Positions 41,733 to 62,617 of a stretch of DNA of 64,000 nt are shown here, piece after piece. The stretch is from Synechococcus sp. SB0662_bin_14 (GTDB taxonomy: Bacteria; Cyanobacteriota; Cyanobacteriia; PCC-6307; Cyanobiaceae). The stretch spans positions 1 through 64,000 of the forward strand of contig VXNS01000038.1 in NCBI GenBank assembly GCA_009840445.1. Direction: 5' to 3'. Every line of letters begins with the position of its first letter. Positions within the stretch are counted from its first letter, which is position 1. The translations under genes were made by a program, and so were the position numbers. The notes below the pieces were generated by a model that did not search any database, was not told the DNA's origin, and saw only the letters and a program-made list of their open reading frames with translations.

Positions 41733-42158
41733 TTGGCGTTAGCCGTCGTTCATGTGGCATCCCAGCCGCTCTGCCCAGGCCAGGCACGGTCACTGGCAGT
41801 GCGGCTGCCCACCACCGCCACGGCTGCCGACGGTTCAAGCAGGCGTTCAAGCAGGCCAAGTGCTCTCCTGCCAGAAAAATTGCAGAGGGAGACGATCCAG
41901 GTGGCAGCGGAGCAGGGAAGGTGCGGGCCGGTGGGTGCCAGCCGCTGCAGCGGCAGGGGTGGTCTACGTCGACCCGGCGGATAGCTCCACCAGCCGCCGC
42001 CAGGGTCGGTCTACCAGTCTTACTTGAGAGTGGCAGCTGCATGATTTTCCGCCTCTCCGGCACCGACACCCGTGGGGTACCCTGCGCCTCTATCTGGAGT
42101 GCTATGAGCCCAGCAGTGGCGCCCTCTTTGATTGATGCAGACAGGGGGAGGGTCACGC
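41733..42158. other. Left border of the defence island, no gene seen
   Basis: About 425 bases with only short overlapping frames. This is where a class 1 DISARM locus would carry drmC (phospholipase D-like); neither HxK-type motifs nor a long minus-strand frame was found. No terminal repeat or tRNA end is visible. Confidence 0.4.
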
Positions 42159-44083: not shown

Positions 44084-47000
44084 TTAGGTGTCAGAGGTGG
44101 TCTCCCTGAAATTCACCATTCGAATCGGAACCGAAGGCTCCACATCGCGAAGGCTCCAGTTGGCGGAGAAATGCTTGTAACCCTCTGTTTGATAGATGGG
44201 GTCGTTGTCGAGTGGGGTATGGAGGAAGCCGGTCCCGGCCCCCTTCTCTTCATGGGTCCAATACTGCAACTTGGCTTCCGGCTCCTGAGCAAGCCTCCAC
44301 CAGGCCTGAAGAAGATTGACCACGTGATCATGCACATCCCTGGATAGGTGTTGAGCGTGGAGGGCGTCCGCGGCACCCGTTGCAACACAGCGGTCCTGAA
44401 GGGCTTTTGCAATCTGTTCTGTTACGCTTTTCAGAGCCTCTGATGCCATTGCACCGCTTGGGGCTGCAAGCTCCGGCTTGCTGTGGCGCGCCATGGCAAC
44501 GGCAACCCCAGGAAGGCCACGATCCAATGCCCGGCTGGCGAAGGGTGTGCAACTCGTGGCCTCCACATGGCGGTAGAAGGTCTGATGCCAATAAGGAAAC
44601 AATTCGAAGTGGGAGCGATCCCGTGGGCGGTTGGGATTCAGGAGCACCAACACCAGCCCAGGTTTGTTCCGGGTTGGATCAGGGCTCAGTTGCCGGCCAA
44701 CGCGGCTGGTGGCCTGGATGTATTCCGCGGCGGTCTTGGGCTGATTGAGGACCACCATCAAGCCCAGTCGCGAGATGTCCAGGCCCACTGAGATCATGTT
44801 CGTGGCCAGGGCCACGTCAAGATGATCCCTGTCGACGTAAGGCTTGGAGAGGCGGTCCTTGGTTTTGCTGATGGTAGCTGTGTTGACCCGTGAGGTGAGT
44901 TCCTCCGGCTCACAAGGCCTCTTCCGTGCCGCGAAGGGATTTGCAAAGTCTTCCATGGCAAGGGCGCGGTTGTTGGCGAACTGCTCCAGTTGCCCACCGA
45001 GTTCGTCTTCCAGAATGCTGCGCGTCACACCCAACTCCCTCAGACTGGAGAAGTAACCCAGGAGCGTCATGTAGGGGTCAGCCGGGTTTTCCCTTCCCAG
45101 GTTCTTGTGGTCGTTCCATGCCTTTTGTGCAGCCGCCATCAGGCCCAGGTAAGCACGCAGCAGCACACCCTTGAGGTTGCGGCCTGGAGCTGAGAGGCCC
45201 ACATACAACCGTGCCTGATCGTCGTCGTCAACAGTGCGAGAAAAGAAGATATCGTTCCGCTCAGGTCCTGGCGGTGGAAACACACGCACCTGGCTACGAG
45301 CAAACAACGCTTTGATCTGGGCTTCCGCTCGCCTGACCGTGGCGGTGGAAGCAACGATCTTGGGTGGCGGAGAGAGTGCATCCGGCATCATCAGGCATTC
45401 AATCACGGATTCATAAAGACCTGCCAGCGTTCCCAGAGGACCACTGATGAGGTGCAACTCGTCCTGGATGATCAATTCGGGCGGCAACAAGCGACCATGG
45501 GGAATTTTCCGGCCCACAGCTTCTTTCTCTGCTGGCCCCCAGAAGCCCGCCATCCCGTTGGGCGTGACCGGCTGGTAGTGGCTGACGTTGCCAAAGATTG
45601 ACGAGGTTTTACCCAGCCAGGGCAGGGCTGCGAATTTGTCGACCGTGGCGATCAAGAAACAAGGCAGGCGTCGATAGATCTGCTCATCCACGGCCAGCAA
45701 CGGCAATGGTGTTTCTCGATGGAATGGGCAGGCGCCCATGTGGGAAAACTTTTCTTTGTCCTCGCGTTTTCTCGGCTCACGACAGTAGATCTCCAACCGG
45801 TCAGGGTTCTTTGGCTTGTTTGGTAAAAGAAAGAAACCCTCGTGTTGAAGTGGGTGATTACACCAAGGGCAAGTCTCAACCGGAATCGGCCTGTTGCCTT
45901 GGCGAGTTTTCCACTGATTGAGCTTGATATACATGGATTGCTCGTCGTGCCGGTCCCCTGGTCCACCAAGCTTATTCGGGGTGGCAGTCTTCCCAACCCA
46001 CATGCCAATTTCAAACGGCCAGTCACCAAGCTGGTGTGGATGGCCGGCGTCTTTGCGGCGACGGAGACGCTCAAGCTCAAGGGCACAGATCAAGGTAGCT
46101 GCACGGCCCAACTGATCCAGGGAGAGCAGGCGTAGAGTATAGCGCATCAGCACCGTAACCCCGGCTGACACAATACCGGGATGTTTGAGCCGCCGATATA
46201 CCAACGTGAAAGCAGCCAGGCCCAGGTAAGCTTCGGTTTTGCCGCCGCCTGTGGGAAAAAACAGCAGCTCAACGGTCTCCCGATCAAGCTTCCCGTTGGA
46301 CGTTTCTGGCGCTGCTAGACCCGGCAGATTCATCAGCACAAACGCCAACTGAAAAAACCGCCAACCAGGTGTGCGGGTATTCGGAGCTGTGCCGACTTGA
46401 TCCGGCGGAACCTTGGCGTCAAACGCCATGCGTTGGCGCTGGGCCTTGGCCATTACCAGATTCATGGTGCGGAAGGCTTCCCGCACCAGGGGATTACCAA
46501 GCAGTTGGATGCCGCTGTTGATGCGCTCAGCACAGTACTGGGAATCGCTCCGAAGCTTTTTTGCCGTTTCTTTCTGCTCTTGGTTGACAATTGGGTGCTT
46601 CGGTTGCTGAAGAATCCAATCCCGGTAGGCTTGCACCATTGGCATCAAGCACCCGGTGATCCGCTCGCTTGCGGCTAAATCCGCGAGGGCTTCCATTTCC
46701 ATGGGCACGTTGATGTGCGGCGGAGGTTCCGGCAGAGTGTGGCGCACCTTGGCTGTGGGCAGCCATGTGGTGGTAAGGGTGTGGCAGCGATCAGGCTGGT
46801 TTGACGTGGCTTCCCCTTCGGTCACGGCAACATTGTGCCCGCTGGCGAAGCAGTAATCCCGCCTGTATTGCAACGCAGCAAGCTGTTCATCAGCGTCTTT
46901 ATCTGCCAACTGCAAGGCATCACGACGTGCTGAAAAGCCTGTTTCACACTTCAAACTCAACTCAACTTGAAAAGCGGAAACTGGATCACGATGACGAATC

Positions 47001-47638
47001 CGATTTGTATTTGGCGCCGGACGCCTGTTGAGTAGAAAGAGAGAGACAGACAACTGGTTACTGGGGTAGCCCAGTTTCCTTGGTGCAGGCCTGGCGATCC
47101 AGCGCAAGCACATCCCCTCGGGGTTGCTCTCAAGTGGAATGTTATCACTGGCGCCTGGTCCGTCAATTGACAGACTGACCTGCTGCCTTTGGGGGCTACG
47201 CACCCACACTTTGCTGCTGTTGTCATCCCCACCAGCAGGTGGGGCATAGTCGCCCCAGGAGGCGGTGACCGCCAGCGTAGAACCCTGCTCAAGAATGAAG
47301 CTCAGGCCCAGCGACGACGGAAACCAACTGCGCCGCGTGTTGCCCTGGTCGAGGGAGTCGTTGGCGTCCTCGTCACCCTCCTTCCTCTCAAGGCGCTTGG
47401 CTGCATCGTTGCTGGGCTCTTCTCCAGCAAGATCCAGGAACGAAAGCTGCCCGTTTTCTGAGGTACGCTTGGCTTCCTGCTGGAAGACGTGGGGCACGAG
47501 GAAGCCGGTTGTGTACCAAACCGAAGGCGGTTGTTGCAGTTGTTCATGGCGACGGGCGTGGTCGTCCCAACCCGGTCCGATCAGGTCACTGCGCAGAGCA
47601 GCCACAAGCTGTTGGCGGATTTGGGCAGAGGTGGCCAT
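44084..47638 (-). CDS. drmA: DISARM helicase DrmA
   Basis: 1,184-residue superfamily 2 helicase-like protein. The N-terminus (IRQQLVAALRSDLIGPG) is typical of DrmA. Walker A/motif I is FPTGGGKTEAYLGL around residues 461-474, motif II is LIIQDELHLISGPLGTLAGLYE, and motifs V-VI read ATNMISVGLDISRLG..QATSRVGRQ. A CPWCNHP-CREPRKRED-CPFH cysteine set suggests a zinc insertion. It is followed by drmB and preceded by a divergent ATPase-HNH pair. Complete by length and motifs. Confidence 0.9.
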   Translation of the reverse strand: MATSAQIRQQLVAALRSDLIGPGWDDHARRHEQLQQPPSVWYTTGFLVPHVFQQEAKRTSENGQLSFLDLAGEEPSNDAAKRLERKEGDEDANDSLDQGNTRRSWFPSSLGLSFILEQGSTLAVTASWGDYAPPAGGDDNSSKVWVRSPQRQQVSLSIDGPGASDNIPLESNPEGMCLRWIARPAPRKLGYPSNQLSVSLFLLNRRPAPNTNRIRHRDPVSAFQVELSLKCETGFSARRDALQLADKDADEQLAALQYRRDYCFASGHNVAVTEGEATSNQPDRCHTLTTTWLPTAKVRHTLPEPPPHINVPMEMEALADLAASERITGCLMPMVQAYRDWILQQPKHPIVNQEQKETAKKLRSDSQYCAERINSGIQLLGNPLVREAFRTMNLVMAKAQRQRMAFDAKVPPDQVGTAPNTRTPGWRFFQLAFVLMNLPGLAAPETSNGKLDRETVELLFFPTGGGKTEAYLGLAAFTLVYRRLKHPGIVSAGVTVLMRYTLRLLSLDQLGRAATLICALELERLRRRKDAGHPHQLGDWPFEIGMWVGKTATPNKLGGPGDRHDEQSMYIKLNQWKTRQGNRPIPVETCPWCNHPLQHEGFFLLPNKPKNPDRLEIYCREPRKREDKEKFSHMGACPFHRETPLPLLAVDEQIYRRLPCFLIATVDKFAALPWLGKTSSIFGNVSHYQPVTPNGMAGFWGPAEKEAVGRKIPHGRLLPPELIIQDELHLISGPLGTLAGLYESVIECLMMPDALSPPPKIVASTATVRRAEAQIKALFARSQVRVFPPPGPERNDIFFSRTVDDDDQARLYVGLSAPGRNLKGVLLRAYLGLMAAAQKAWNDHKNLGRENPADPYMTLLGYFSSLRELGVTRSILEDELGGQLEQFANNRALAMEDFANPFAARKRPCEPEELTSRVNTATISKTKDRLSKPYVDRDHLDVALATNMISVGLDISRLGLMVVLNQPKTAAEYIQATSRVGRQLSPDPTRNKPGLVLVLLNPNRPRDRSHFELFPYWHQTFYRHVEATSCTPFASRALDRGLPGVAVAMARHSKPELAAPSGAMASEALKSVTEQIAKALQDRCVATGAADALHAQHLSRDVHDHVVNLLQAWWRLAQEPEAKLQYWTHEEKGAGTGFLHTPLDNDPIYQTEGYKHFSANWSLRDVEPSVPIRMVNFRETTSDT

Positions 47639-47736: not shown

Positions 47737-49047
47737 ATGCTCCACCGTCTGCATCTGAAGAACGTGGGTCCAGCACCGGAGTTGGCCTTGGACCCGCTGG
47801 CGCTGCGCCTGAACTTGATCACCGGCGATAACGGCCTGGGCAAGAGCTTCTTGCTGGACGTGGCCTGGTATTGCCTCACCCGACGGTGGCCCCAGGAGGT
47901 GAATCCAGGCCTGACCAACGGCGCCATGGCATTGCCGAGGGATCGCAAACAGACGGCCACGTTGACGTTCACTGTGGACGGGGAGCAGCGACAAGAGAGT
48001 GAATATGCTTGCCGCTTTGATCTGGAGGAGGAGACCTGGCTTGGCAATGCCGGCCGCCCCGTGAACCCGGGGCTGGTGCTTTACGCCATGGCCGATGGCT
48101 CCTTCGCCTTGTGGGACCCGGCCCGTAACGCCTGGAAGCGCAAGGGCAACAGTGATGCGCCAGAAAAGATCAAGGCCTATGTGTTCAGCAACCAGGAAGT
48201 GTGGAGGGGCAAAGTCAATGCTGCCGACGAGCGCAACTGGCTGTGCAACGGACTGATACGGGACTGGGCCAACTGGCAGAGGGAAAACGGCGAGGCCTTT
48301 GCGCAATTGAAGCAGGTGTTAGAGGTGCTCTCTCCCGAGCCCCACATGTTGAAGCCGGGGCCACTACAACGCCTTCGTCGCGACGACGCAACCGACTACC
48401 CCACGATCATTGGCGCGGACGAGGTGCCCGTGCCGGTGGCGCATGGCTCCTCGGGCGTGCGCCGGATTCTGGCATTGGCCTACCTGTTGGTGTGGGCCTG
48501 GCAGGAGCATCAACGGGCCAGCGAACTCCTGGCCAAACCACCTTCCCGCCAGATGATCTTCCTTATTGACGAAGTAGAAGCCCATCTCCATCCCTCCTGG
48601 CAACGGCGGGTGGTGAGGGCGTTGCTGCAGGTGGTGCAGGGACTTCACCGCCAGACGACTGTGCAGCTTCTCCTGGTGACCCACTCTCCCCTGGTGATGG
48701 CATCAGTGGAACCACACTTTGACCCCAATCAGGACCGCTGGTGGGATCTGGACCTGAACCCGGAAACCAGGCGGGTGGAGCTAATCCAGCAGGACTTTAC
48801 GAGGCTGGGTGACGCCAACAGTTGGCTGCGGAGCGAAGCCTTCCACCAGGACGACACCGGCTCTCTGGAACGGGAGAAGATCCTCAGAGCAGCGCGGAGG
48901 GCCATTCATCAAATAGAGCGAGGGGAGGCCGTCGATTCCCAAGAGGTGCAGCGTCTTGAACAGGAGTTGCAGAAGGTGCTGGGGAGCACGGATCCCTTCT
49001 GGAGTCGTTGGCGTTTTGCCGAGCGGCAGGGTGGCCAGCGACCATGA
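47737..49047 (+). CDS. AAA/OLD-like ATPase, Septu PtuA-type
   Basis: 436 residues. N-terminal LKNVGPAPELALDPLALRLNLITGDNGLGKS holds the Walker A (residues 30-37); an ABC-signature-like SSGVRRILALAYLL and Walker B IFLIDEVEAHLHPSWQ follow, then a switch His in LLLVTHSPLV. This is the layout of PtuA and related defence ATPases that act with an HNH nuclease. The HNH gene begins 7 bases after its stop. Could also belong to another AAA-15 ATPase plus HNH system; Septu is the closest named type. Confidence 0.75.
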   Translation: MLHRLHLKNVGPAPELALDPLALRLNLITGDNGLGKSFLLDVAWYCLTRRWPQEVNPGLTNGAMALPRDRKQTATLTFTVDGEQRQESEYACRFDLEEETWLGNAGRPVNPGLVLYAMADGSFALWDPARNAWKRKGNSDAPEKIKAYVFSNQEVWRGKVNAADERNWLCNGLIRDWANWQRENGEAFAQLKQVLEVLSPEPHMLKPGPLQRLRRDDATDYPTIIGADEVPVPVAHGSSGVRRILALAYLLVWAWQEHQRASELLAKPPSRQMIFLIDEVEAHLHPSWQRRVVRALLQVVQGLHRQTTVQLLLVTHSPLVMASVEPHFDPNQDRWWDLDLNPETRRVELIQQDFTRLGDANSWLRSEAFHQDDTGSLEREKILRAARRAIHQIERGEAVDSQEVQRLEQELQKVLGSTDPFWSRWRFAERQGGQRP

Positions 49048-49054
49048 TTCCCAC

Positions 49055-49741
49055 ATGATTCCCATATCAATGCCACAAGAGCCGGCTTGTTTTGATTCAA
49101 CAGTGCGGCAAAGAGGCCTGGCTTTCTTGCAACGGCAAGGACAGGATCCCCAGCAGGAGCCGCAAAATGGTAGCAGTATCTGGAGAAATGGTGCTGGCAA
49201 CTTCTGGAGGGCAGTCAAGGATGAGCTACGTACAGGCTACAACAATCGCTGTGTCTACTCCTGCTTTGTCCTGGAGGAAGAGCGCCAACAGGATGGCACT
49301 CTGCGCTCAACCCATAGCATCGATCATTTTCAGCCCAGGTCTCGCAGCCCAGCTTATCTGGCTTATGAGTGGAGTAACCTGCGCTGGACCTGGAATGTAA
49401 TTGATAACGAGTGCAAGAAAGACCATCTCATCCCTGAGGAACACGATCCTATCCGACTGACTCGTGACATTATGGAGCTTAAAGAAGATGATAATGGCGA
49501 CTGGATCGTGGTTCCAGATTCGTCGCTGACCACTTCAGAACAGGAAAAGATTGGCAGGACAATTCAAGATCTGGGCCTGAATAGGCGTAGAGTGAAGATA
49601 AGACGCAATCAGTATGTCGAAGATTTTCTGGACAAGGACAACCATTACGGTTCTGACTTCATGGAAGAACGCCAACCATTTATCTATCGTGAGCTGAAGC
49701 GTTTGGGGTGGATCCAAGAAGCCAAAGAAAAAAATCTTTAA
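49055..49741 (+). CDS. HNH endonuclease, Septu PtuB-type
   Basis: 228 residues. HNH-like core: CVYSC (Cys66, Cys70), STHSIDHFQPRSRSP with His87 and His91, WSNLRWTWNVIDNEC and KKDHL. These positions match the Cys/His pattern of PtuB-like HNH nucleases that damage nucleic acid when the ATPase partner is triggered. ATG 49055 is used; ATG 49070 is also possible. It is coupled to the ATPase gene upstream. More AT-rich toward its 3' end. Confidence 0.72.
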   Translation: MIPISMPQEPACFDSTVRQRGLAFLQRQGQDPQQEPQNGSSIWRNGAGNFWRAVKDELRTGYNNRCVYSCFVLEEERQQDGTLRSTHSIDHFQPRSRSPAYLAYEWSNLRWTWNVIDNECKKDHLIPEEHDPIRLTRDIMELKEDDNGDWIVVPDSSLTTSEQEKIGRTIQDLGLNRRRVKIRRNQYVEDFLDKDNHYGSDFMEERQPFIYRELKRLGWIQEAKEKNL

Positions 49742-50331
49742 GGACGATCACCTTCCCTCACGCGTGGAGAATGGTTGTCAGGAGCTGTTGTCAACGGCAT
49801 CATCCTTTCGTTGACTAAGATTTGGGACATTGCGGGCTGTCTTGGTCCAAACTGCTATAAAGCTGGGCCACATCCGGCAGATGTGGAGGGTGAGGTGTCG
49901 CAGCCCAGGCCAGTGGCCCCAATCGTGGTCAACCACAAGGCTTCTCATGGCTGCTTGGCCTCCCGCCACCCTCTGCAGGCTGCTCGGTGGTCCTGGAGAA
50001 GAACAAGCGAACGGTTTTCCCGAGTGTCAGTTCCACCTGGGTGCTGGTTCTCTCCTGGGGAGGAGTCACTGTCTTGCTTATAGCAGGCTGCGGCCCTGAC
50101 TGGGCACTCACTGAAGCTTGGTAAGAGGATACCACTCCTGTGCAGTGGCATTGACAGCTCAAAATTATAAGTGGATTTGGAAGGAACTCCCTGGCATTCT
50201 TAGATTTCTTCATTATTAGAAAAGAGTTTTATCATCTTTATTTAAGAAGTGCCGGGGAACCTCGGGGAGGATTGGGAAACTCCTTCCGCCTCAGTCCCGT
50301 TCTTTTGAAAAGCCTTGCTATGACAAGGGAG
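49742..50331. other. Intergenic stretch inside the defence island
   Basis: About 590 bases between the HNH gene and a truncated HepT gene. Composition changes midway to an AT-rich run (around 50.15-50.25 kb). No gene or repeat family recognised; it may contain the lost 3' end of the HepT gene or an inserted fragment. Confidence 0.35.
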
Positions 50332-50610
50332 TCAAGGCCTTATGTGGGCCCTTTCAGGACTGTCTAGCGCTCTGATCCCGCAGCCATTAGTACGGAAATC
50401 CGTACCAAAAGCCTTGACGGCAAATGCAATCCATCGCACTGCTTCCTCAGGCCAGGCAGGGATCCAACGATCACCCCACCGGCAAACAGGGCCGGATCGA
50501 CTCAGACGGCTGGCTTTGTCGTCCTCAAGGGTAAGGCCAGCTACAGCCATGGTGACGGCATCGGCGGCCTCGATGATGTCGTAGAGGAAGACCTTGGGAT
50601 TACGCTTCAT
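50332..50610 (-). pseudogene. HepT-like toxin, truncated
   Basis: The first 30-35 residues (KRNPKVFLYDIIEAADAV..FAGLTLED-like) match the start of HepT/DUF86 HEPN RNases. After that the sequence no longer fits: the Rx4-6H active-site region is missing and the rest looks unrelated. HEPN toxins of this kind pair with an upstream MntA nucleotidyltransferase, which is exactly what precedes it, overlapping by 11 bases. Probably inactive. Confidence 0.6.
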
Positions 50611-50911
50611 AGATCAACTGCTTGCTGGCCTGAATCTCGGCCCACACATGGGGATTGTGGATGGCGCCCGCCATCACCAGGTCCACCGGTTGGTCCAGGA
50701 TACTGGCGAGTTGCTGCTCCAGACTGAAATAGGCATCCACCAAGGCCGTGGGCTCCAGAGACTGGAACTCCACCAACCAGTCCAGATCACTACAGCCCGG
50801 CTGGAAATCATCCCGCACGGCCGAGCCGAACAGGTGCATGTGCTTCACATGGTGCCGCCGGCAGGCCAGAGCGACGGCATGGCGCTGGCTGGTGGAGATG
50901 GTAAAGCTCAT
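50600..50911 (-). CDS. MntA-type nucleotidyltransferase antitoxin
   Basis: 103-residue minimal nucleotidyltransferase. The signature FGSAVRDDFQPGCSDLDWLVEF provides the GS..D-x-D metal site. Family members silence HepT by adding AMP groups. It overlaps the end of the drmMI gene by one base (TGATG-type coupling) and the HepT-like gene by 11 bases, so it would be translated with the DISARM transcript. Looks intact, unlike its partner. Confidence 0.8.
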   Translation of the reverse strand: MSFTISTSQRHAVALACRRHHVKHMHLFGSAVRDDFQPGCSDLDWLVEFQSLEPTALVDAYFSLEQQLASILDQPVDLVMAGAIHNPHVWAEIQASKQLIYEA

Positions 50912-53900
50912 CAGCGGAGATCCAGGCTCCCCCCCTGGGAAGACGGCGGGGTTTTCGGTGGCCGACCCCGCCGTCTTCCCGCCTTCCCGCTGGCCGTGGC
51001 AGCCTTCTTCTTGCCGCTGTGCAACCCCTGCGCCACCTCTTCAGCGTAGCGCTCGGCATTGAGGGCCAGCAGGCGGGCCAACACGTCATACCGCACGGAA
51101 TCGGGCCAGCGGTAACGCCAGGGCAGCGTCTTTCTGGCACTGATGGCGCCATGGGCTTTGAGTTGATCCTGAAAGTCAATGGCATCTTCAGCATTCCGGA
51201 AAAAGAGACTGCCACTATCGATCCGGTCTTGCAACTCGTCGGGAAGCTGGGTGTCTTCATCAGGATCGAGGTAATCGAGGCCAAAGCCGCAGGTGGTGGG
51301 CACATCGTGCCAGCCGTAGGCATTCAGCACGGCTTGGTCCATCTCGCTGTGGAGACGGCGCAACTCCATGATTTGGGAATCTGTTTCTTCAGGATCGTGG
51401 AAACGATTGTAGGTTTTGGTAAGACCCTCGTTGTTTTCCACCATCAGCGCGGCGCGGAATTGGTAGTAGTGCTTGCCAAGGGATTCGAGAGTCTGACGCT
51501 GGATGGCTGCTTCTTGACTTCCATGTAAATGTTCAAGAAGAGCAGCGGGAAATGGAAAAGTCTCAAAGCACGCTGATGAATTGTATCGCAGTCCATCACC
51601 TAAGGTGGCACAGTTGAACCGACTCCAATCATCATGTAGTCGTGATGTAAGAAGTCCAAATAGATCATAGGCACCTAGTCGAAAAACACACAAAGTATTT
51701 AGATAGACTTGATTGGAGGAAAGAAAAGCAAAGGAGAAGTGCTTTGTGGCCGTGGATCCTCCTGGGCAAACCAGGATATGGTCGCAGCCATCAATTGCCA
51801 GAGCAAGCTCCTTACGATCAGCTCCAAACAACCACCATTTTGCAGCTACTTGTTTGTTCCAGGCGTTCTTAGGAGGTAAGCCGATGCGTCCTGGCTTTAC
51901 TTTCCGCTCCACAATCTTCATGAGTTCTGGCCATTGATGCCGACACTCCTCTTCCCTACGTCCACCAAAGTTAATCACATAGCGATGATAAGCATGAGTG
52001 GGACTGTTGTTAACTTCCTCGCTACCGATTAAAGGGAAAATAACGTCCTGATTTTTAGGAGCTTTAGCAGTCAAGCGCTCCATCGTTTTGATTGGCGAGG
52101 GAGTCCCAGAAGTTTCGTCACTAGCATCGCTTGAGTCATTAAAAGTGAAGCCCAACCCAAACACGGTGCTGCCCTGAAAGCTCTTGCCTGCATTGGCGGC
52201 CAGTGGTTTGGGATCCTCATGGCCGCCATTGGCGAACAGAAACGCGGTGATCTTGTCCACCGACTGCCCATCCAGCCACTTCTTACCTGCATAGTTACCC
52301 TTGAGCACATGCACCACACTTACCACCACTGCCGCCACGCCGGGCCACTTGTAACGCTTGCGGGCCGCGTAAATGGCGCCGCCATGGGTACAAATCCAGC
52401 TTAGGCCTGTGCTGCGGGTATCCCCTTGGGCGATGGTGTTGGTGGCAACCAATCCCAATGATCCACCGGGCCGCAGCAAGTTAAAACAGCGGCGAAAGAA
52501 ATGGGCCACCAGGTCGGCATTGCCGTGGCTACCTTCGTGGATATGTTTGAACCAGTCGAGAATGGCGGCTGGTGAACCCTTGGCGATGGTGTTTTTGCCC
52601 GCAAAGGGCGGATTGCCAACAAATACGTCAAAGCCTGGTTGATCGCGGTTGAATACTTCTGGAAACTCCATCTGCCAATGGAAAGGGGTGATGCCGTGTT
52701 CGCCGTCTTTGAGGCGGTTGAGAAGCTGCTGCACAGCCTCATTTAAGCCTTCATCACGAAAGGCATCGCCCACCATCGCTGCGTAGACACGGGCTTTCTC
52801 TTCCCGCTCTTTGGGTTTCCTGCTGTTAAAGAAGGCCGCCACCATGAGGTCACCAACGAGCTTTAAGGGTTTGGCGTCCTCTTCTTGATGGGCTAGTTCC
52901 TGCCGCTTTTGCCAGTCTGTGGCATCGTCACGGCTATCCATGCCAAAGGTTGTCTGGCGAGCGGTGCTCAGCTTCGGCAGAACTTTTAACTGCTCGTCAA
53001 GGAATGTCAGTTGGACTTTCGAGAAAAAGTCACTGATCTCCGTGTCGCCATAGCCCACCAGGGAATCGCCACACTTGAGGGCGTGATCCACAAAGGTGAA
53101 GGGCGCGTCTTTGCTCAGTGTTACCAGCCAGAGGGATAGCTTGGCCAGATTGACAGCGAAGGGATTTTTATCCACCCCGTACAAACAGCTTTGAGCAATT
53201 AAGCGGCGGGATATAATCAAGGTTTCTTCCCCATGGGCGCCACCACCCGGTTGGAGGGCTGGCGGCAAACCCTCCCGGATCCAGGCCTGCTCCAGCAACT
53301 CCGCCAAATAACGGCAGGTCTCCACGAGGAAGGCGCCGGAGCCCATGGCCGGGTCGCAGATTTTCAACGCGAGAATCCGAGCGGCTGTGGGCTTGCGCTC
53401 ACAACGCTCCAGCCATGGCCGCAGCGCCTCCTCCACGATGGGCCGGGTCAGGGAACGGGGCGTGTAGTGGCTGCCGCTGCAACGCCGCTCCGCCGTCGGC
53501 TGAAACACCAAGCTGCCAGCGGGCTGCGGGCCATCGAAAAGCTCTCGATCAATGCGCGGCGCCAACGCCTCCAGCACGTTCGCCTCGCTGCTGGCAGTTT
53601 TCAAGGCCCGCGCTGCTTTGGTGGGCAGCTTGGTCTGGGCTTGATCCTCCAGCCATTTTTTTACGTTGGCCCCATCCAGCGTCAGCAGTGCATCAAGGTC
53701 AATGGCAGTGGTGAGTTGCTTTTTGGCGCCCTGGGGCTTGCTTTTGACGCCAATGCAGCGCCCGCCCATGCGCCGCACCTGGTAGCCCATGATGCCCTCG
53801 TACACCGAACCAATCTGCTCCACGTCCAGCGCCCGGTAGCTGATGCGCTCCCCGTTCACCACCAGCAGGTTGCGCAGCACGTTGAGCACCACCCCGTCAC

Positions 53901-55081
53901 TGAGCCACGGGGTGTCCAGCCACGGATACACCCCAGGATCAAACAACTGCCCGCGCCGCGCCGGGAGATAGTCTGCCGTGGCGCCGCCGCCGTGGAACAC
54001 CAGCCGACAGAGACTCATGAGTCCGGCCCAGGCGCCGTAGCGCTGCTCCATGGTGTCGGGGAACTCCGCAGCGTCCTGCTGGAGTTGCTCAAAGATCCCG
54101 CTCACCTTGTAGTTCTGCTCATACACCGCATCAGCAGGCATCAAGGCCTCGTCTTCCGCGTAGAGCAGAAACACCAGGCGCATCAACACCGTGATCAAAC
54201 CGCCGTAGAGCCGTTGCGGGTTCTCGTCCGGAATGAAACTCAGCAGCGTTTTCCCTGGGCGCCGGGTGGGTTGGTGCTTGCGCAAAGCCCCGCAGCAGGT
54301 CCCATAGCGCTGACAACACCTGATCCGCCAGGGTGTTGCTCACCACCGCCTGGAAGCTGCGGCTTGCCTTGAGCACGTCCGCCAGCCGGGCGCCGTCGGG
54401 ATCAAAAAACACACGGCTCTGGCCCAGCAGCAGATCCAGGGCCGAGAACATCAGCCGGCCGCTCACCTCTGCCAGTTCCTGCAACGGGAAGGTGAGATGG
54501 CCGGAACTCTCCCCCTTGGGCGCCACCACCAAGCGCAGTTGACCGCCGTTGAACAGGAACCCTGCTTCGACGCCGGTTTCCCGCAGCAATCGCTCAAAGC
54601 GCTCTTGCGGCGTGGCCCGCCATACATGCTCCCCATCACTGGTCTTCCGGTCCAGGGGCGTCAGCGGCGCCAACTCTTTCACCAGCATCTGCGCCCCATG
54701 GCCCGTCACGGCGGGGATCACGGCGGTGGGCTTCAGGGTTTCCCCCAGTTCCGGCAACGCCTTGGCATAGGCCTTAAGCTGGGTGGGATCGCTCCGGATT
54801 TGATCCTCGCTCCAGCCCAGGTGCTCCATCAATAGATCGTTCAGACGGGAGAATCCCTTGCTGTTGTCCTCCAGGTCAGCGTCCTCAGCGGGATTGAGGG
54901 GTTCCAGGGCGTCCCGATAGCGCTGTTGTCGCTCAACGAGATCACTGCCGCTGCGGGTCAACACCCAACCGGCGTCCCGGATGGCCGCCGGGGCCACCAC
55001 CAACCCCACCGGCTGCAAATAGCCCAGCCATTCCTGGTGCGCTCTCAACTCGGGGGCAACGGTGGGGGAGCGACGGGGCAT
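50911..55081 (-). pseudogene. drmMI: DISARM class 1 methyltransferase DrmMI, frameshifted
   Basis: Large adenine DNA methyltransferase of the PglX/Eco57I-like kind, about 1,390 residues if read through. The 5' part (55081 to about 54.27 kb, beginning MPRRSPTVAPELRAHQEWL) and the 3' part (from about 54.285 kb to 50911) are in different frames and join where DLLRGFAQ should meet the LLSFIPDENPQRLYGGL region. The 3' part has motif I DPAMGSGAFLVE, motif IV VGNPPFAGKNT, a target-recognition half and an AT-hook-like tail (GRRRGRPPKTPP). It would mark host DNA as self for DISARM. One indel explains the break; sequencing error or true loss are both possible. Confidence 0.8.
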
Positions 55082-55162
55082 GGCGTCAAAAAGCTGGAAC
55101 GTGTGGGAGTTGAGTTGCCTTATCGGTGGGGCAATCCTGCCATGGAGACTGATGGGGCAGCC
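54871..55162. repeat. drmMI 5'-end direct repeat, copy A
   Basis: About 292 bases, including the ATG and upstream region of drmMI, present again 1,796 bases to the right with scattered substitutions. The two copies flank the fic gene in direct orientation. Confidence 0.9.
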
Positions 55163-55195
55163 AGGAGGCTGGTAGAAACCCTATTTCCGGTTGTC

Positions 55196-56326
55196 TTATT
55201 CCCGTTGCTCCGGTTGGCTTAACACCCAACCGGCCCATGGTTGGACCAAGCGCCAAGTGCGAATGCGCTGGCCCTCCTTGGCGGGACGCAGGAAGCCCTC
55301 CCGCTCCCATGCCTTAAGCCACTCCTGGGCGGTGGTGGACGAGATGGCAAACCACCCCTCCAGGTCGCCGGGTTTGAACAGTTCGGCATGAGCCTGCCCG
55401 GCGACAACCCGTGCCCGGAGGCGGGTCAGCAACTGTTGGCTGCGCCGGTCCAACGCTTCCCAGGGGTGGGGAGCCGCTGGCTCCTGGCGGGCCTGCTGGG
55501 CCAGGGCCGCAGCCGCTTGGCACACCACATCAGTAAAAAACACCAGCCAGGGACTGTGGTCCGGATCATGGCGGCCATCGTAGAAATTGACCGGGCAGCC
55601 TAGTTGCAGGGCCGCGTAATAAGCCTCCCGATCCTTGCTGAACCACTCTTCAATGCTCAAGAACCCACGGAAGTCGTAGCCACAGCGCCCAAGGGATGCG
55701 GTGGCCAGCAAGCGGCCGCAACGGCCGTTGCCGTCGTCGAAAGGATGGATGGAGATAAAGCGATGGCTCAGCAGAGCGGCCCGCACCACGGCAGGGAGGT
55801 TCTCGCTCTCTTGCCACCACTGGCACAGTTGCCCCATCAGGGCGGGAACGCCATCGGGAAAAGGTGGAGCGTAGTCAATGCGGTGCGTCAGGTTGTCCAC
55901 CACCGGCACTTCCGTGCTGCGGTAGGGGCTGCGCTGCCGGCGACGGCCCCGTCCCCGCACGATCACCACGGCGTGAAGCTGCTGAATCCATGCCTCGCTC
56001 AGGAGCTGCTTGCTCTGAGACCAATCCTCCACCATGTCCAGGGCGCGCCAGTAGTTGCGCACCTCCTGTTCCGCTTTGCTGCCGGTGCGATCACTGCTGG
56101 CCACCGCAAGCTGCACGGCTTCATCATCCAACGGGTTGCCCTCGATGCGGGTGCTGCTGCGGGTGCTGCGCTGATAGGCCCCATGGCGCAAGCGCAAATT
56201 CTCGTCCGGGGGGAGCGGCAGGAATTCCACTACGGCGCGGGCTGCCGCCGTGGCGCAGAGATCCGCCACCAAGTGGTTGCTGTAGGTGTAGCGCGGCGCC
56301 CAGGCGGGCAGATTGGTGGCAGCCAT
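55196..56326 (-). CDS. Fic domain protein with N-terminal inhibitory motif
   Basis: 376 residues. The catalytic Fic motif HPFDDGNGRCGR is at 194-205 with His194, the residue needed to transfer AMP or another nucleotide part to a target hydroxyl. The inhibitory helix motif S-x-x-x-E-G is at 58-63 (STRIEG), which makes it a self-restrained class II Fic. A winged-helix-like tail follows (FAISSTTAQEWLKAWEREGFL). It starts 2 bases after the stop of a drmD-derived open frame and lies between drmD and drmMI. Target unknown. Confidence 0.85.
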   Translation of the reverse strand: MAATNLPAWAPRYTYSNHLVADLCATAAARAVVEFLPLPPDENLRLRHGAYQRSTRSSTRIEGNPLDDEAVQLAVASSDRTGSKAEQEVRNYWRALDMVEDWSQSKQLLSEAWIQQLHAVVIVRGRGRRRQRSPYRSTEVPVVDNLTHRIDYAPPFPDGVPALMGQLCQWWQESENLPAVVRAALLSHRFISIHPFDDGNGRCGRLLATASLGRCGYDFRGFLSIEEWFSKDREAYYAALQLGCPVNFYDGRHDPDHSPWLVFFTDVVCQAAAALAQQARQEPAAPHPWEALDRRSQQLLTRLRARVVAGQAHAELFKPGDLEGWFAISSTTAQEWLKAWEREGFLRPAKEGQRIRTWRLVQPWAGWVLSQPEQRE

Positions 56327-56328
56327 CC

Positions 56329-56877
56329 CTATCCGCTGATGGGCCAGAGATAGACAAGACCGGCGGGCTCCAGCCGGTGGGTGATCACCCGATAGCTTTC
56401 CTGAATGCGCTTCGGTTCGCTGGTGAGTTCACCTTCAATGGCTTCCAGCCCCCGTTGCCAGTGCCTCTGGTCCGCGGAGAGTTGTTGGCGCTCTTGCCTG
56501 GATAGGGTCTGAAGATCCAACGCCGGAACATCAATCTGCTCCTTTAGACCTGGAATCACCCCAAGGGGTTCTTCCACTGCGGCGGTCTTGTTCATCTTGG
56601 CCAGGTCTCGATTCCGTTGGCGCAGGGTGGCGTTGATGCGTTTGCGCTGGGATCGCAGCGCCTCCTTCAGGGCGGCGTCTTCAACGGGATTGAGGCGTTC
56701 CAGGGCATCCCGATAGCGCTGTTGTCGCTCAACGAGATCACTGCCGCTGCGGGTCAACACCCAACCGGCGTCCCGGATGGCCGCCGGGGCCACCACCAAC
56801 CCCACCGGCTGCAAATAGCCCAGCCATTCCTGGTGTGCTCTCAGCTCGGGGTCAACGGTGGGGGAACGACGGGGCAT
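56329..56877 (-). pseudogene. Chimeric frame: drmMI N-terminus joined to drmD C-terminus
   Basis: 183 codons with an ATG (56877) at the equivalent place to drmMI. The first 70 or so residues repeat the DrmMI N-terminus (MPRRSPTVDPELRAHQEWL). After base about 56667 the frame becomes a helical, charged segment ending HRLEPAGLVYLWPISG. I assign this segment to the C-terminus of a DrmD-type SNF2 helicase from remembered family ends; the cut helicase gene 1.5 kb upstream lacks its C-terminus. The chimera has neither catalytic centre. Confidence 0.6.
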
Positions 56878-56958
56878 GATGTCAAAAAGCTGGAATGTGT
56901 GTGGGTTGAGTTGCCTTATCGGTGGGGCAATCCTGCCATGGGGGCTGAGGTGGCAGCC
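56667..56958. repeat. drmMI 5'-end direct repeat, copy B
   Basis: Partner of copy A, same orientation, in the chimeric frame. The shared part runs from upstream of the ATG to the codons for about residue 70 of DrmMI. Confidence 0.9.
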
Positions 56959-57056
56959 ATGGATTAGACAAACAATGCTAAGAGTCACTGGATGGGACAG
57001 CCCTGGGGTTGGTCTGACGGTGGCCCTGGGGATGGCTCCAGGGTTTTCCTATTTAA

Positions 57057-58478
57057 TTAGCCTGTTTTTTCATTATTATAACTAAAGATCTCAAGTAATG
57101 ATTCAGCAATTCCGTTTATTTTCCAAGTGAAAATAGCATGACCTTGCTGATATAAAGGTAAGCTAATAGATAAAATTTTTCCATTAATTAATAGCTGTAG
57201 ATGTTCTTCATAATTAAGAATTATATCATTACTGGATTGTGAGCCTTCTTTCCCTTCCCACTTAAAATCTTTACCATCAATTCTAATCGATAAATTATGG
57301 TAGAATCCGCTTTCCCTTACTTCCTGGTCTACAATATTCGGGTCATTATTAAATCTAATCCATAAATCTTTATTGTCAAACATTATAGCGGCCTTTAGAT
57401 CTTCATAAGGTAAAGATATTTTATTAGAGGAAGAAATTGTTTTGCTTGATGCGATTAACCCACAGACTTCATTAAAATTATTTAGTGCTTTAATTATTTT
57501 CCACTTACAATAACCTGTAGCCCATTTTCCCTTTTCACTGTTAAAGTTACCCTTACTGATAAGATACTCCATTAGGAAAGAGTTATTTTGCTGAATGATT
57601 AATCCTAAAGGAGTTCTTTTACTCCAACCTCCCTTAGCATAGATATTTGCTCCAGAGTCAATCAATAATTTTGCTATTTCTACTTTTCCATCTTCAATTG
57701 ATTTATGTAATAAAGTCCATTCTCCAGGTAAAATTGTATAATTAGGATCTAAACCGTCCCTAGTAATTAATAGTCTTAGTTGGGATAAATTATCATTATT
57801 AATCGCATCTTTTGTCTTCATCAGAATATCAACTCTATCTTTACGATTAGAAAATGGTGACTGGGAAGGCTCTTTGGAAGTCTCATTAGAAGTCTCCTCG
57901 ATAGTTTCCTTAACTGTCTTCTTATGAAGTCTCTTTTTTAGTGGCGTTATTAATTTTTCCGTTATATTTAACATTTCTCCATAAATAAATATACAAGCTA
58001 ATGGAATTGTAATTATTTGACCAACAAAACATAAAAATATACCAAAACAGCTTACAATTGCCGCTATTGTAGATTTAATAATGAAAGATGGATCTTCAAG
58101 AGATTCTGACATTGATTCTCTGATAAGATCGAAAGGTTCGTCGTCTTTAGTAAAGACGTAATGAGAGTAAAATGGTAGAGAAGCAAAACCTAATATAGGT
58201 ATTAAAGACAATAACCAACCAACTAAAGAGCATTTAATAAATCTATTCGTAAATACTAGTGCCTTAAAGTCTTTGATAGAAGGATATTTTCCATGAACGT
58301 AGGCCATTGACAATGGGTAAAACCAGAAAACAGGAGAAAGTAAATAACCGGCAAAATGGCTAAACAGAAACAGACCTAAATTATCTGTTAATTGTGTAAC
58401 AGTTTTAGTGGCTGTGGGCTGGCCTGGAGGAAGAGAATTGGGCATGAGAATGGTTTTGTGGGCAACATATCCTACCAT
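57057..58478 (-). CDS. AT-rich membrane protein with ankyrin repeats
   Basis: 473 residues. The N-terminal half has several hydrophobic helices (LGLFLFSHFAGYLLSPVFWFYPL, the LVGWLLSLIPILGFASLPF region, AAIVSCFGIFLCFVGQIITIPL), then a Lys/Glu/Ser-rich linker and a soluble half with at least two ankyrin-like repeats (GEWTLLHKSIEDGKVEIAKL with LIDSGANIYAKGG, then RTPLGLIIQQNNSFLMEYLI). DNA is strikingly AT-rich against GC-rich neighbours, and codon use is unlike everything else here. It interrupts the drmD gene. The ATG at 58445 is an alternative start. Function unknown; recent foreign insertion is likely. Confidence 0.8.
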   Translation of the reverse strand: MVGYVAHKTILMPNSLPPGQPTATKTVTQLTDNLGLFLFSHFAGYLLSPVFWFYPLSMAYVHGKYPSIKDFKALVFTNRFIKCSLVGWLLSLIPILGFASLPFYSHYVFTKDDEPFDLIRESMSESLEDPSFIIKSTIAAIVSCFGIFLCFVGQIITIPLACIFIYGEMLNITEKLITPLKKRLHKKTVKETIEETSNETSKEPSQSPFSNRKDRVDILMKTKDAINNDNLSQLRLLITRDGLDPNYTILPGEWTLLHKSIEDGKVEIAKLLIDSGANIYAKGGWSKRTPLGLIIQQNNSFLMEYLISKGNFNSEKGKWATGYCKWKIIKALNNFNEVCGLIASSKTISSSNKISLPYEDLKAAIMFDNKDLWIRFNNDPNIVDQEVRESGFYHNLSIRIDGKDFKWEGKEGSQSSNDIILNYEEHLQLLINGKILSISLPLYQQGHAIFTWKINGIAESLLEIFSYNNEKTG

Positions 58479-58487
58479 AGTCGTCTT

Positions 58488-60611
58488 CTAGGGATGGCCT
58501 GGGGATGGCCCACGGCGCGCCCCGGCGGCCCACGTGCAGGCTCTTTGACGTTGCACCAGCGGCGAGAGGGATCCCAACTCCTTGCGGATCACCTCTGTTT
58601 TTTTCACCAACACGTCCATCACCCGATCTTCCGGGCGGTCCTCCAGCACGAAGTAGTGACACCAGACCCGAGGAGCACGCTGCAGTTTGCGATCAATCCG
58701 GCCGTTGCGCTGCTCAAGCTTGCCGGGATTCCAGGGAATGTCAAAATGGATCAGGTGGCGGCAGTGATTTTGCAGATTGACCCCCTCCCGGGCCGCATCG
58801 GTGGCGATCAAGATCCGCAGCGGCTCCTCTTCCGGATCGGCGTTGAATCGAGCCTTCAACCGCTCCCGGCTCTCGTCGCCCATGCCACCGGTGAAAGAAG
58901 CAATGCGGCGACTGGCGTCGTCATCTCCCAGAAGCACACGCAGTTGACGCTCTAAATAGCGCTTGGTATCGACGTAGTCGGTAAAAATCAACAGGCGCGT
59001 TGGCGCCCATCTTGCCTGAGCCTCTCCGAGATTGTGGCAGAAGTGCTGGCGTAAAAAAGCCTCCAGCTTGTGGATGCGTGGATCCGGGCGGTAGCGATTT
59101 GCTTCAGCGATTGTCCCCATGGCCTCCAGCATGTCCAAATCGCTCTGATTGGTGTCCACCGTCTCCCGCAGGGCAGCGCGGGTCTGGGCGGCCTCCATGG
59201 TGAGCAGCTCATCTTCCGGGAGCTCGGCAGTATCGCTGTCCCGATCAGCGCCACCCCGTAGGAGATCCAGAGATGCTTCCGCAGCCGCCAAAGCCCCATG
59301 ACGTTGCTGCTGCCGGGCTTCCATGGTGTTTGCGTGTACCTTGAGCGTGCGCGCAAAGGCCTCAATGGAACTGAGCAGACGCTTTTGCAGATTGGTGGTC
59401 ACCAACCGGTCGGCATTGCGCTGGCGTTTGCTGGCCCCCTCTTGAACCAGGCGCTGCTGCCGTTGTTTGCAGTATGCCTGCAACAGCCTTGACAGTCCCA
59501 GTTCCGGGGTCTCGGTTGGCAGGCTTCCTCTGGGAATGGTGAGCGGCTGCACCACACGCTCGGGGAATTCCTCGCCAAGGCGCCGCAAGTCGTCCTTCAG
59601 GCGCCGCACCAGAACGCTGTTCAGATCCCTGGGGTTAAACGGCACACCGCGCACAAAGCGCGTTGGATCCAGCAGTTCCAACAGCGCGGTGAAGCTGTTG
59701 CTGTGGCCGTTATGCGGAGTGGCCGAGAGGAACAGCCGGTGCTCGAACAGGGGCGCCAGATCCCTGAGGCTGCGCGTCAGACCAGAATCAACTGCATAGC
59801 GCAGGGTGTTGCCGGCGGGTGCAGCGTTATGGGCCTCATCCAGGATCAACAGCGACTGCAGCGGCGCCCGATTCTCCCCACATTTGCCTTCCTCAAGCCA
59901 CACCCGCAGCGGTGCCGCATATTCCGAATGACGCAAGAGCGCATGGGAAATCAGAAAGCGGCTATGGGTGCTCCAGGGATTGGCGCCGTAGCCGCGCTCT
60001 TGGCGCACTTTGGCCACATAGGCCCGGTCCATCACCGTGAACGCCAAGCCGAAGCGGTTCGCCATCTCCTCCTGCCACTGCCGCAGCACTGAAGGTGGGC
60101 AACTGATCACGACCCGCTTGATCCGCTGCCGCAACAGCATCTCCCGCAGAATCAAGCCAGCCTCAATGGTCTTCCCCAAGCCAACGTCGTCAGCGATAAA
60201 CAGACCCACCCGCGGCATCTGCAGGGCCTTACGCAGTGGTTCCAACTGGTAGGCCTTCACGTCAATTCCCGCCCTGTAAGGGGCCTGGAAAAGGTGGGCG
60301 TCCGTGGCGGTAACACAGTTCCAACGGAGAGTGTTGATATAAGCGGCGAACTGCTTGGGTTGGTCAAATCCACGCTGGGCCACGGCCTCCCAACTGCTTT
60401 CCCCAAGCACTGCAAAGTCGATCTCCCGCTCTCGGAACACCGTCAGCCGGCCGCCAATGGCGTCATCTTCCATGCAAGCCATGGAGACCACCGTGTCCCC
60501 ACCTGGTTCCAGGGGAGCTTGCACGTCTTCCACCAGATAACGGCGGGTACGACAACGGACCACGGCTCCCGGCTTGAGCTTGGTGTGGGGTTGGGTGGTG
60601 ATCGTGGTCAT
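58488..60611 (-). CDS. drmD: DISARM class 1 SNF2-like helicase DrmD, C-terminally cut
   Basis: 707 residues with a full SNF2 helicase core: motif I DVGLGKTIEAG (142-152), DEAH box (258-261), LSATPHNGHSN, then late motifs around DAAREGVNL and LEQRNGRIDRKLQ. The N-terminal region (LFQAPYRAGIDVKAYQLEP) matches DrmD. Normal DrmD runs several hundred residues further; here the frame ends soon after VKKTEVIRKEL with a short, unrelated tail, just before the AT-rich ankyrin gene. Core ATPase might fold, but the DISARM C-terminal domain is missing. Divergent from mnmG with 80 bases between starts. Confidence 0.82.
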   Translation of the reverse strand: MTTITTQPHTKLKPGAVVRCRTRRYLVEDVQAPLEPGGDTVVSMACMEDDAIGGRLTVFREREIDFAVLGESSWEAVAQRGFDQPKQFAAYINTLRWNCVTATDAHLFQAPYRAGIDVKAYQLEPLRKALQMPRVGLFIADDVGLGKTIEAGLILREMLLRQRIKRVVISCPPSVLRQWQEEMANRFGLAFTVMDRAYVAKVRQERGYGANPWSTHSRFLISHALLRHSEYAAPLRVWLEEGKCGENRAPLQSLLILDEAHNAAPAGNTLRYAVDSGLTRSLRDLAPLFEHRLFLSATPHNGHSNSFTALLELLDPTRFVRGVPFNPRDLNSVLVRRLKDDLRRLGEEFPERVVQPLTIPRGSLPTETPELGLSRLLQAYCKQRQQRLVQEGASKRQRNADRLVTTNLQKRLLSSIEAFARTLKVHANTMEARQQQRHGALAAAEASLDLLRGGADRDSDTAELPEDELLTMEAAQTRAALRETVDTNQSDLDMLEAMGTIAEANRYRPDPRIHKLEAFLRQHFCHNLGEAQARWAPTRLLIFTDYVDTKRYLERQLRVLLGDDDASRRIASFTGGMGDESRERLKARFNADPEEEPLRILIATDAAREGVNLQNHCRHLIHFDIPWNPGKLEQRNGRIDRKLQRAPRVWCHYFVLEDRPEDRVMDVLVKKTEVIRKELGSLSPLVQRQRACTWAAGARRGPSPGHP

Positions 60612-60691
60612 CCCTCCTTCAGCAGTTTGATGATGTTGAGAGGATTTGGCCGACGCTTCAGCACCAGCGCAGCCCCGCTTAAAGTGGAACC

Positions 60692-62617
60692 GTGGATCAT
60701 TCTTGCAGTGAACGGTTCGACGTGATCGTCGTGGGCGGTGGCCACGCCGGCTGCGAAGCCGCTTTGGCTGCCGCCCGCCTCGGTTGCTCCACCGCTCTGT
60801 TTACCCTCAATCTGGATCGCATCGCCTGGCAGCCCTGCAATCCCGCCGTGGGCGGCCCCGCCAAAAGCCAGTTGGTTCACGAGGTGGATGCCCTGGGGGG
60901 CGTCATTGGCCGCTTGGCGGATGCCCACGCCATTCAAAAGCGCCTGCTGAACGCCAGCCGCGGCCCGGCGGTTTGGGCGCTGCGGGCCCAAACCGACAAG
61001 CGGCGCTATGCCCTTGGCATGCAACGTCTCCTGCAAGAACAACCCAACCTGTCCCTGCGAGAGGCCATGGTGACCGACCTGCTCATCAGCGGCAGCCGCG
61101 GCGAGGGCAACCTGCGGATCCATGGGGTGGAAACCTACTTCGGCAGTCGCTACGGCGCCGAGGCGGTGGTGCTCACCACCGGCACGTTTCTGGGGGGGCG
61201 CATCTGGATCGGGGGCCGCTCTCAAAGCGCTGGCCGGGCCGGGGAGGCGGCGGCCACAGGCTTGACCGATGCTCTACAGCGGCTGGGGTTGGAGATGGAC
61301 CGTCTCAAAACCGGCACCCCCGCCCGGGTGGAGCGGGACAGTGTGGCCTTGGAGGACCTGGAGGCCCAGCCCAGTGATGGGGCGGATCGCTACTTCAGCT
61401 TTGATCCCGAGGCATGGATCAGTGGTCCCCAGCTTAGTTGCCACATCACCCGCACCACTGCCGCCACCCACCGGTTGATTCGCGACAACCTCCACCTCAC
61501 ACCCATCTATGGGGGCTTTCTGGATGCCAAGGGTCCCCGCTATTGCCCCTCCATCGAGGACAAAATTGTCCGTTTTGCCGAGAAGGAGTCCCACCAGATT
61601 TTTCTGGAACCCGAAGGTCTGGACAGCCCTGAGTTGTACATCCAGGGCTTCAGCACGGGGCTACCCGAGTCTTTGCAGTTGCAGTTGCTGCGCACCCTGC
61701 CGGGGTTGGAGCACTGCGTCATGCTGCGGCCCGCCTATGCGGTGGAGTACGACTACGTTCCCGCCACCCAGTGCTGGCCCAGTCTGGCGGTGAAGGGCAT
61801 CGGCGGCCTGTACACAGCGGGCCAGTTGAACGGCACCACCGGCTATGAGGAGGCGGCGGCCCAGGGTCTGCTGGCTGGTCTCAATGCGGCGCGGCAGGTG
61901 GGGGGTCAGCCGCCCCATGTGTTGTCCCGGGACAGCAGCTACATGGGCACCATGATTGACGACTTGGTGAGCAAAGACCTGCGGGAGCCCTACCGGGTCC
62001 TCACCAGTCGCAGTGAGTATCGGCTCCTGCTGCGGGGTGATAACGCTGATCGGCGGCTCACACCCGTGGGGCGGAGGTTGGGACTGGTGGATGATCGCCG
62101 CTGGCGTGCTTTTGAGGCCAAGCAACTGGCCATTCAGGCGCAGCAAGACCTGTTGGAGACCACCCGCCTCAAGGCCGGTGATCCGGCGGGTGTGGCCCTG
62201 GCCAAGGCCAGCGGCGCCGCCATCAAGGGCTCCATCACCCTGGCGGAACTCTTGCGCCGACCAGGTGTCCACAGCTCCGATCTTCTCCGCCATGGGCTCA
62301 TCTCCCCCCACGTCCCCCCGGATGTTCGGGACGGGGCGGAAATCGACGTCAAGTACAGCGGTTACCTGGAGCGACAACGCCAGCAGATTGCCGTGGTGCG
62401 CGAGCAGCACGGTCGCCCCTTGGCGCCCACCATCCCCTACCACAGCATTACCACCCTCTCCAAAGAGGCCCGGGAGCACCTCAGCCATGTGCAACCCCTG
62501 ACCCTGGGGCAGGCCAGCCGCGTTCCGGGGGTCAGTCCAGCGGATGTCAACGCCCTCCTCCTCTGGCTGGAACTACAGCGGCGGCGGCAGGATCAAAGCT
62601 CCGGGGTTCCGGCCTGA
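60692..62617 (+). CDS. mnmG: tRNA modification enzyme MnmG (GidA)
   Basis: FAD protein that with MnmE adds the cmnm5 or nm5 group to wobble uridine in tRNAs. 641 residues from GTG 60692. FAD-binding [17 protein letters not shown] is at the N-terminus; [40 protein letters not shown] and the C-terminal [19 protein letters not shown] motif are all present. It is the first core gene right of the defence island, suggesting the island inserted next to it. Confidence 0.96.

Follow-up and report, generated by a model that had tools for sequence, protein, structure and literature searches.

DISARM anti-phage systems that carry both drmD and drmMI are reportedly the class 1 type of Ofir and colleagues (2018). 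The core components of DISARM, taken here as in PMC9142583, are the helicase DrmA and the DUF1998 protein DrmB, and the phospholipase-D protein DrmC is non-essential (PMC9142583). Ankyrin proteins, which also enter into this comparison, have been reported in all genomes of Ca. Synechococcus spongiarum studied (PMC6506613). The window analyzed here is a 64-kb stretch of a draft genome of 85 contigs and 2.16 Mb, and the close relatives of its locus are sponge symbionts of the Ca. S. spongiarum type, the nearest named ones being Synechococcus sp. SB0668_bin_13 (G004) and Ca. S. spongiarum SP3 (G005); G003, G006, and G009 are other sister genomes. A literature search found no paper mentioning both Ca. 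S. spongiarum and DISARM.

The window contains a DISARM locus composed of drmA, drmB, and a drmD–fic–drmMI cassette. Both core genes are present as open, intact frames on the minus strand: drmA at 44084–47638 (PADLOC DrmA model, 2.5e-248) and drmB at 42159–44063 (PADLOC DrmB model, 1.1e-64). The fic gene (55196–56326, minus strand; Fic, PF02661, 9e-17) is likewise an open, intact frame and lies directly downstream of the drmD 3′ end, as it directly follows drmD in SB0668_bin_13. An intact methyltransferase DrmMI is absent; drmMI (50911–55081, minus strand) is broken into two frames, each matched by DrmMI models, because it has lost 2 bp near 54262, as alignment with SB0668_bin_13 and SP3 shows. 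An intact DrmD is also absent, its C-terminus sitting on a separate chimeric frame, and no DrmC was recognized among the window frames scanned with PADLOC. We read the locus as one that is decaying by rearrangement, along a path of crossover or duplication, deletion, and insertion, and give this reading a probability of roughly 0.7.

Several other elements lie within or beside the locus. A Septu-like pair (47737–49741, plus strand; PtuA ATPase 4.5e-163, PtuB 1e-35, both PADLOC) is in the opposite orientation and separates drmA from the drmMI side of the locus. Just downstream of drmMI (50332–50911, minus strand) are a small nucleotidyltransferase-like frame (PADLOC PDC-S09, 1.7e-28) and a second small frame, which we take to resemble a HEPN/MNT toxin–antitoxin pair. 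A dispersed repeat of approximately 75–80 bp at 50273–50354 has at least 40 copies among the matches listed for G003 and one to three matches in most other genus members, and a second dispersed repeat of approximately 160 bp (41964–42125), immediately 3′ of drmB, has copies of approximately 80% identity in most of ten genus genomes.

The remaining pieces of drmD and the chimeric frame

The 5′ part of drmD (codons 1–689; 58545–60611, minus strand) encodes a complete SNF2/SF2 helicase core, with SNF2-rel_dom and Helicase_C domains, that shares 93% amino acid identity with the intact DrmD of SB0668_bin_13, a protein of 1116 codons starting with MSTITTQ. The frame that includes this part (60611–58488, minus strand) matches the PADLOC DrmD model PDLC02621 at positions 7–677 of 1040, in agreement with the initial annotation, which had the DrmD frame stopping after its helicase core. 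The alignment it had proposed for the last residues of this frame shows that homology to the intact protein ends at codon 689 (...LSPLVQRQ); the final 18 residues are not DrmD. The 3′ end of drmD, comprising the last 110 codons and ending VYLWPISG, is found at 56329–56661 (minus strand). It starts at approximately codon 1007 of the intact protein and has 81% amino acid identity to it over a 128-aa match, which bears out the proposed assignment of this segment to the DrmD C-terminus. The same ending is found in 14 uninterrupted DrmD frames of free-living (Cyanobium/Synechococcus) and sponge-associated relatives, a count that includes SB0668_bin_13 and one frame with a one-residue variant. Approximately 317 codons (690–1006 of the intact protein), or approximately 950 bp, are absent from the window; by these alignments, drmD is not merely split but has lost its middle third as well. 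Along the minus strand, the two pieces are separated by a 54-bp junction sequence, an ankyrin gene, approximately 62 bp of filler, and a second copy of the start of drmMI. The dN/dS of the 110-codon C-terminus is 0.52, a value resting on 21 changes only.

The frame at 56329–56988 (minus strand) matches the DrmD model at positions 890–1035 and the DrmMI model at positions 4–47 (PADLOC), as expected from the chimera of a drmMI 5′ end and a DrmD C-terminus that had been recognized previously. The drmMI portion (56663–56959, minus strand) consists of an upstream region and the first 71 codons, and is 93.3% identical to the original copy (54867–55163, minus strand) and 93.0% identical to drmMI of SB0668_bin_13. 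The direct repeat of the drmMI start reported in the initial annotation is thus real, with its length corrected from 292 to 297 bp and its identity given as 93%. The second copy includes approximately 75 bp 5′ of the drmMI start, reaching into the fic–drmMI intergenic region, so it was apparently taken along with its upstream region. From the native start codon at 56877 the chimera would be 182 aa long, and it is most likely without function. The repeat and an insertion had been offered as an explanation of the whole arrangement; both elements exist, but together they are insufficient because approximately 950 bp of drmD, a loss overlooked previously, is gone.

The homologies to drmMI and DrmD overlap for 20 bp (56663–56682), and in the crossover patch formed by this overlap (56662–56682, minus strand) the two parental sequences agree at 15 of 21 positions, an agreement that random drmD/drmMI registers reach at a frequency of 5e-5. 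Given that drmD, fic, and drmMI are consecutive in both SB0668_bin_13 and the window, the join of the drmMI 5′ end to the drmD 3′ end fits a tandem duplication of drmD-3′/fic/drmMI-5′. The 7% divergence of the repeat copies implies that such a duplication was not recent, and a single recent self-duplication of drmMI is ruled out by this distance together with the nearly equal distance of both copies from SB0668_bin_13. This second junction, between the drmMI copy and the drmD 3′ end, was seen in no other genome. An assembly artefact might be suspected in a draft of 85 contigs, the more so because the SP3 contig ends within the first junction; however, the divergence of the copies makes a collapsed repeat unlikely and the first junction also occurs in an independently assembled genome, and we regard an artefact as very improbable.

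Instead of tandem duplication, the source of the chimera could be recombination of two divergent DISARM copies once present in the same genome, one at an mnmG site and one at an mnmA site. SP3 has DISARM remnants at both sites, and the second drmMI copy, which is 94.8% identical to the genome's own drmMI versus 94.4% to that of SB0668_bin_13, groups weakly with the latter (support of 0.87). This grouping, however, rests on 213 bp only, the window genome is without a second DISARM remnant, and over the 96 bp available the SP3 copy at the mnmA site is 92.7% identical to the window's own drmMI versus 88.5% to the duplicate copy. We consider this origin possible but doubtful and favor tandem duplication.

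The codon-689 break and the dN/dS of the helicase core

The non-DrmD junction sequence of approximately 54 bp that follows codon 689 (58490–58544, minus strand) was delimited by alignment with the contigs of SB0668_bin_13 and SP3, and it appends the 18 residues RACTWAAGARRGPSPGHP to the truncated DrmD frame. The first 38 bp of the junction match SP3 at 95% identity, with all other matches being short, and SP3 contig C44 stops 38 bp into the junction sequence. The broken drmD of C44 adjoins the same gene as in the window, which we take to be mnmG. The presence of the codon-689 break in an independently assembled genome makes an assembly error unlikely for this junction.

The helicase core has a dN/dS of 0.155 between the window and SP3, and of the 55 changes assigned to the window branch, 18 are nonsynonymous, well under the share of roughly 70% expected without selection. 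Given that the break is shared with SP3, these values suggest constraint on the helicase core after truncation. Such purifying selection counts against our reading of the locus as decaying: a dead gene would not be expected to show it if the two genomes diverged after the break that they share. The dS to SP3 is 0.175 for drmD and 0.399 for the adjacent mnmG; given the lower divergence of drmD, the broken allele may have been transferred from one species to another. At 60508–60707, identity to SP3 steps from approximately 94% in drmD to approximately 90% in mnmG, which hints that the DISARM allele was exchanged laterally.

These observations bear on whether the truncated DrmD still functions, as a helicase-core-only protein that selection maintains as part of a minimal DISARM alongside drmA and drmB. 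The low dN/dS after the split from SP3, which has the same break, and the intact drmA and drmB frames are what such a system would predict; against it, drmMI is frameshifted, the truncated drmD of SP3 carries indels within its frame, and the dS difference (0.18 vs. 0.40) may reflect a recent move of the allele, with most changes older than the break. We therefore judge a working minimal system unlikely; residual function of the truncated DrmD is possible, not likely. Bolder still is the proposal that selection kept a DrmD cut to its helicase core in two sponge-symbiont species after loss of the C-terminal third; DISARM could then be pared down in symbionts, and the island would have recruited the membrane-ankyrin gene. 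This proposal strikes us as quite improbable.

The AT-rich block and the membrane-ankyrin gene

The interruption of drmD by an AT-rich gene of different composition was correctly recognized in the initial annotation: GC content, about 60% in the flanking sequence, is about 30% across roughly 57.05–58.48 kb. The block contains one frame of note, a gene for a 462-aa protein (57057–58445, minus strand; GC of 31.9%, GC3 of 23.8%) with a start set by alignment with relatives. This protein is composed of a transmembrane domain of approximately 165 aa, within which the hydrophobic segments lie, followed by ankyrin repeats (Ank_2, 6e-8) and a C-terminal part. A structure prediction from the single sequence has a mean pLDDT of 43.7 and was not used for inference.

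Three sister genomes (G009, G006, and SP3) encode the membrane domain with no ankyrin repeats attached; SB0668_bin_13 has a shorter form of it, and the window genome contains a decayed copy at another place. All copies found, of which there are several with a GC content of 31 to 46%, belong to this genus; in a search of 386 cyanobacterial genomes, the matches outside the genus were weak and mostly to the ankyrin repeats, not to the membrane domain. By these comparisons, the membership of the ankyrin gene in a genus-specific, AT-rich family is established. The earlier description of the insertion as foreign relied on composition alone, and since the membrane domain was found in this genus alone and the GC content of its other copies likewise falls well short of 60%, a foreign origin is not established. 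A phage or plasmid origin was considered and rejected, there being no relatives of the gene in viral contigs, phage records, or plasmid records.

The AT-rich block lies between two copies of a 12-bp direct repeat, CCTGGGGATGGC, at 57025–57036 and 58498–58509 (both plus strand). The repeat has four copies genome-wide, the other two being inside unrelated coding frames, and two such flanks would have a 12-mer in common by chance with a probability of 0.00065. Direct repeats at the ends are a feature of mobile elements, and those found here fit an insertion of the block; they may also predate the insertion rather than be its product. The block contains no transposase or integrase, and no inverted repeats of at least 7 bp were found between its ends. 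Between the repeat and the drmMI copy is the GC-rich filler of approximately 62 bp (56963–57024), which has no convincing match in the genus. Known dispersed repeats were considered as a source of the GC-rich fillers and rejected, with only short, weak matches found.

Proposed history and comparison with known systems

From the present anatomy we infer the following path and order of steps. An imperfect-homology crossover would have joined drmMI codon ~69 to drmD codon ~1006, as a tandem duplication of drmD-3′/fic/drmMI-5′ would do. Next, a deletion starting at drmD codon 689 would have removed the first copy of the drmD 3′ half together with fic, ending approximately 75 bp before the start of the drmMI duplicate. 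GC-rich filler would have remained at this site, and the membrane-ankyrin gene was presumably inserted into it, between the 12-bp repeats. These steps would leave a DrmD that retains the helicase core but not the C-terminal third, along with a chimeric frame. The predicted intermediate with two fic genes is carried by no relative. The initial annotation favored recombination over slow decay; at this spot the evidence is indeed for rearrangement and not point-mutation decay, but slow decay is also ongoing, as seen in the 2-bp deletion of drmMI and the indels of SP3 drmD.

Breakage of the drmD–fic–drmMI cassette is, on the contigs compared, recurrent in the genus, based on a fusion in SP3 and degraded copies in other genus members. 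In the second SP3 remnant, located beside mnmA (contig C93, 871–2745), drmD codon ~608 is fused by deletion straight to drmMI, an event independent of the window chimera, and in G003 both drmD and drmMI are broken. This locus, from a sponge-living cyanobacterium, is good documentation of a defence system being broken by rearrangement and does not represent a new system. It provides a base-level record of the breakage of a multi-gene defence in a host-restricted cyanobacterium, with a duplication-type join, a large deletion, a gene insertion, and a frameshift at one locus and an intact sister locus available for comparison, and the break common to SP3 lets one ask whether the truncated DrmD core retains a role.

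Like DISARM systems with drmD and drmMI, the locus has drmA, drmB, the drmD helicase core, and drmMI (PADLOC models); unlike them, its drmD is reduced by ~317 codons, its drmMI is frameshifted, a Septu-like pair and a fic gene lie inside it, and no drmC was recognized in the scanned frames. The ankyrin protein shares ankyrin repeats with the eukaryotic-like proteins of sponge symbionts (PMC6506613), but in the window protein the repeats come after a genus-specific membrane domain that is found alone in sister genomes. In the SP3 contigs JXQG01000108 and JXQG01000075, drmD is broken at the same point as in the window, with 38 bp of the same junction sequence and mnmG as neighbor; they differ in that the SP3 contig ends in the junction, its drmD has further indels, and a second deletion fusion, drmD::drmMI, lies beside mnmA. 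The intact cassette of SB0668_bin_13 (contig VXWH01000041) has the same drmD–fic–drmMI order at 92–93% DNA identity; in contrast to the window, its genes are uninterrupted by any insert and it is located beside mnmA rather than mnmG.
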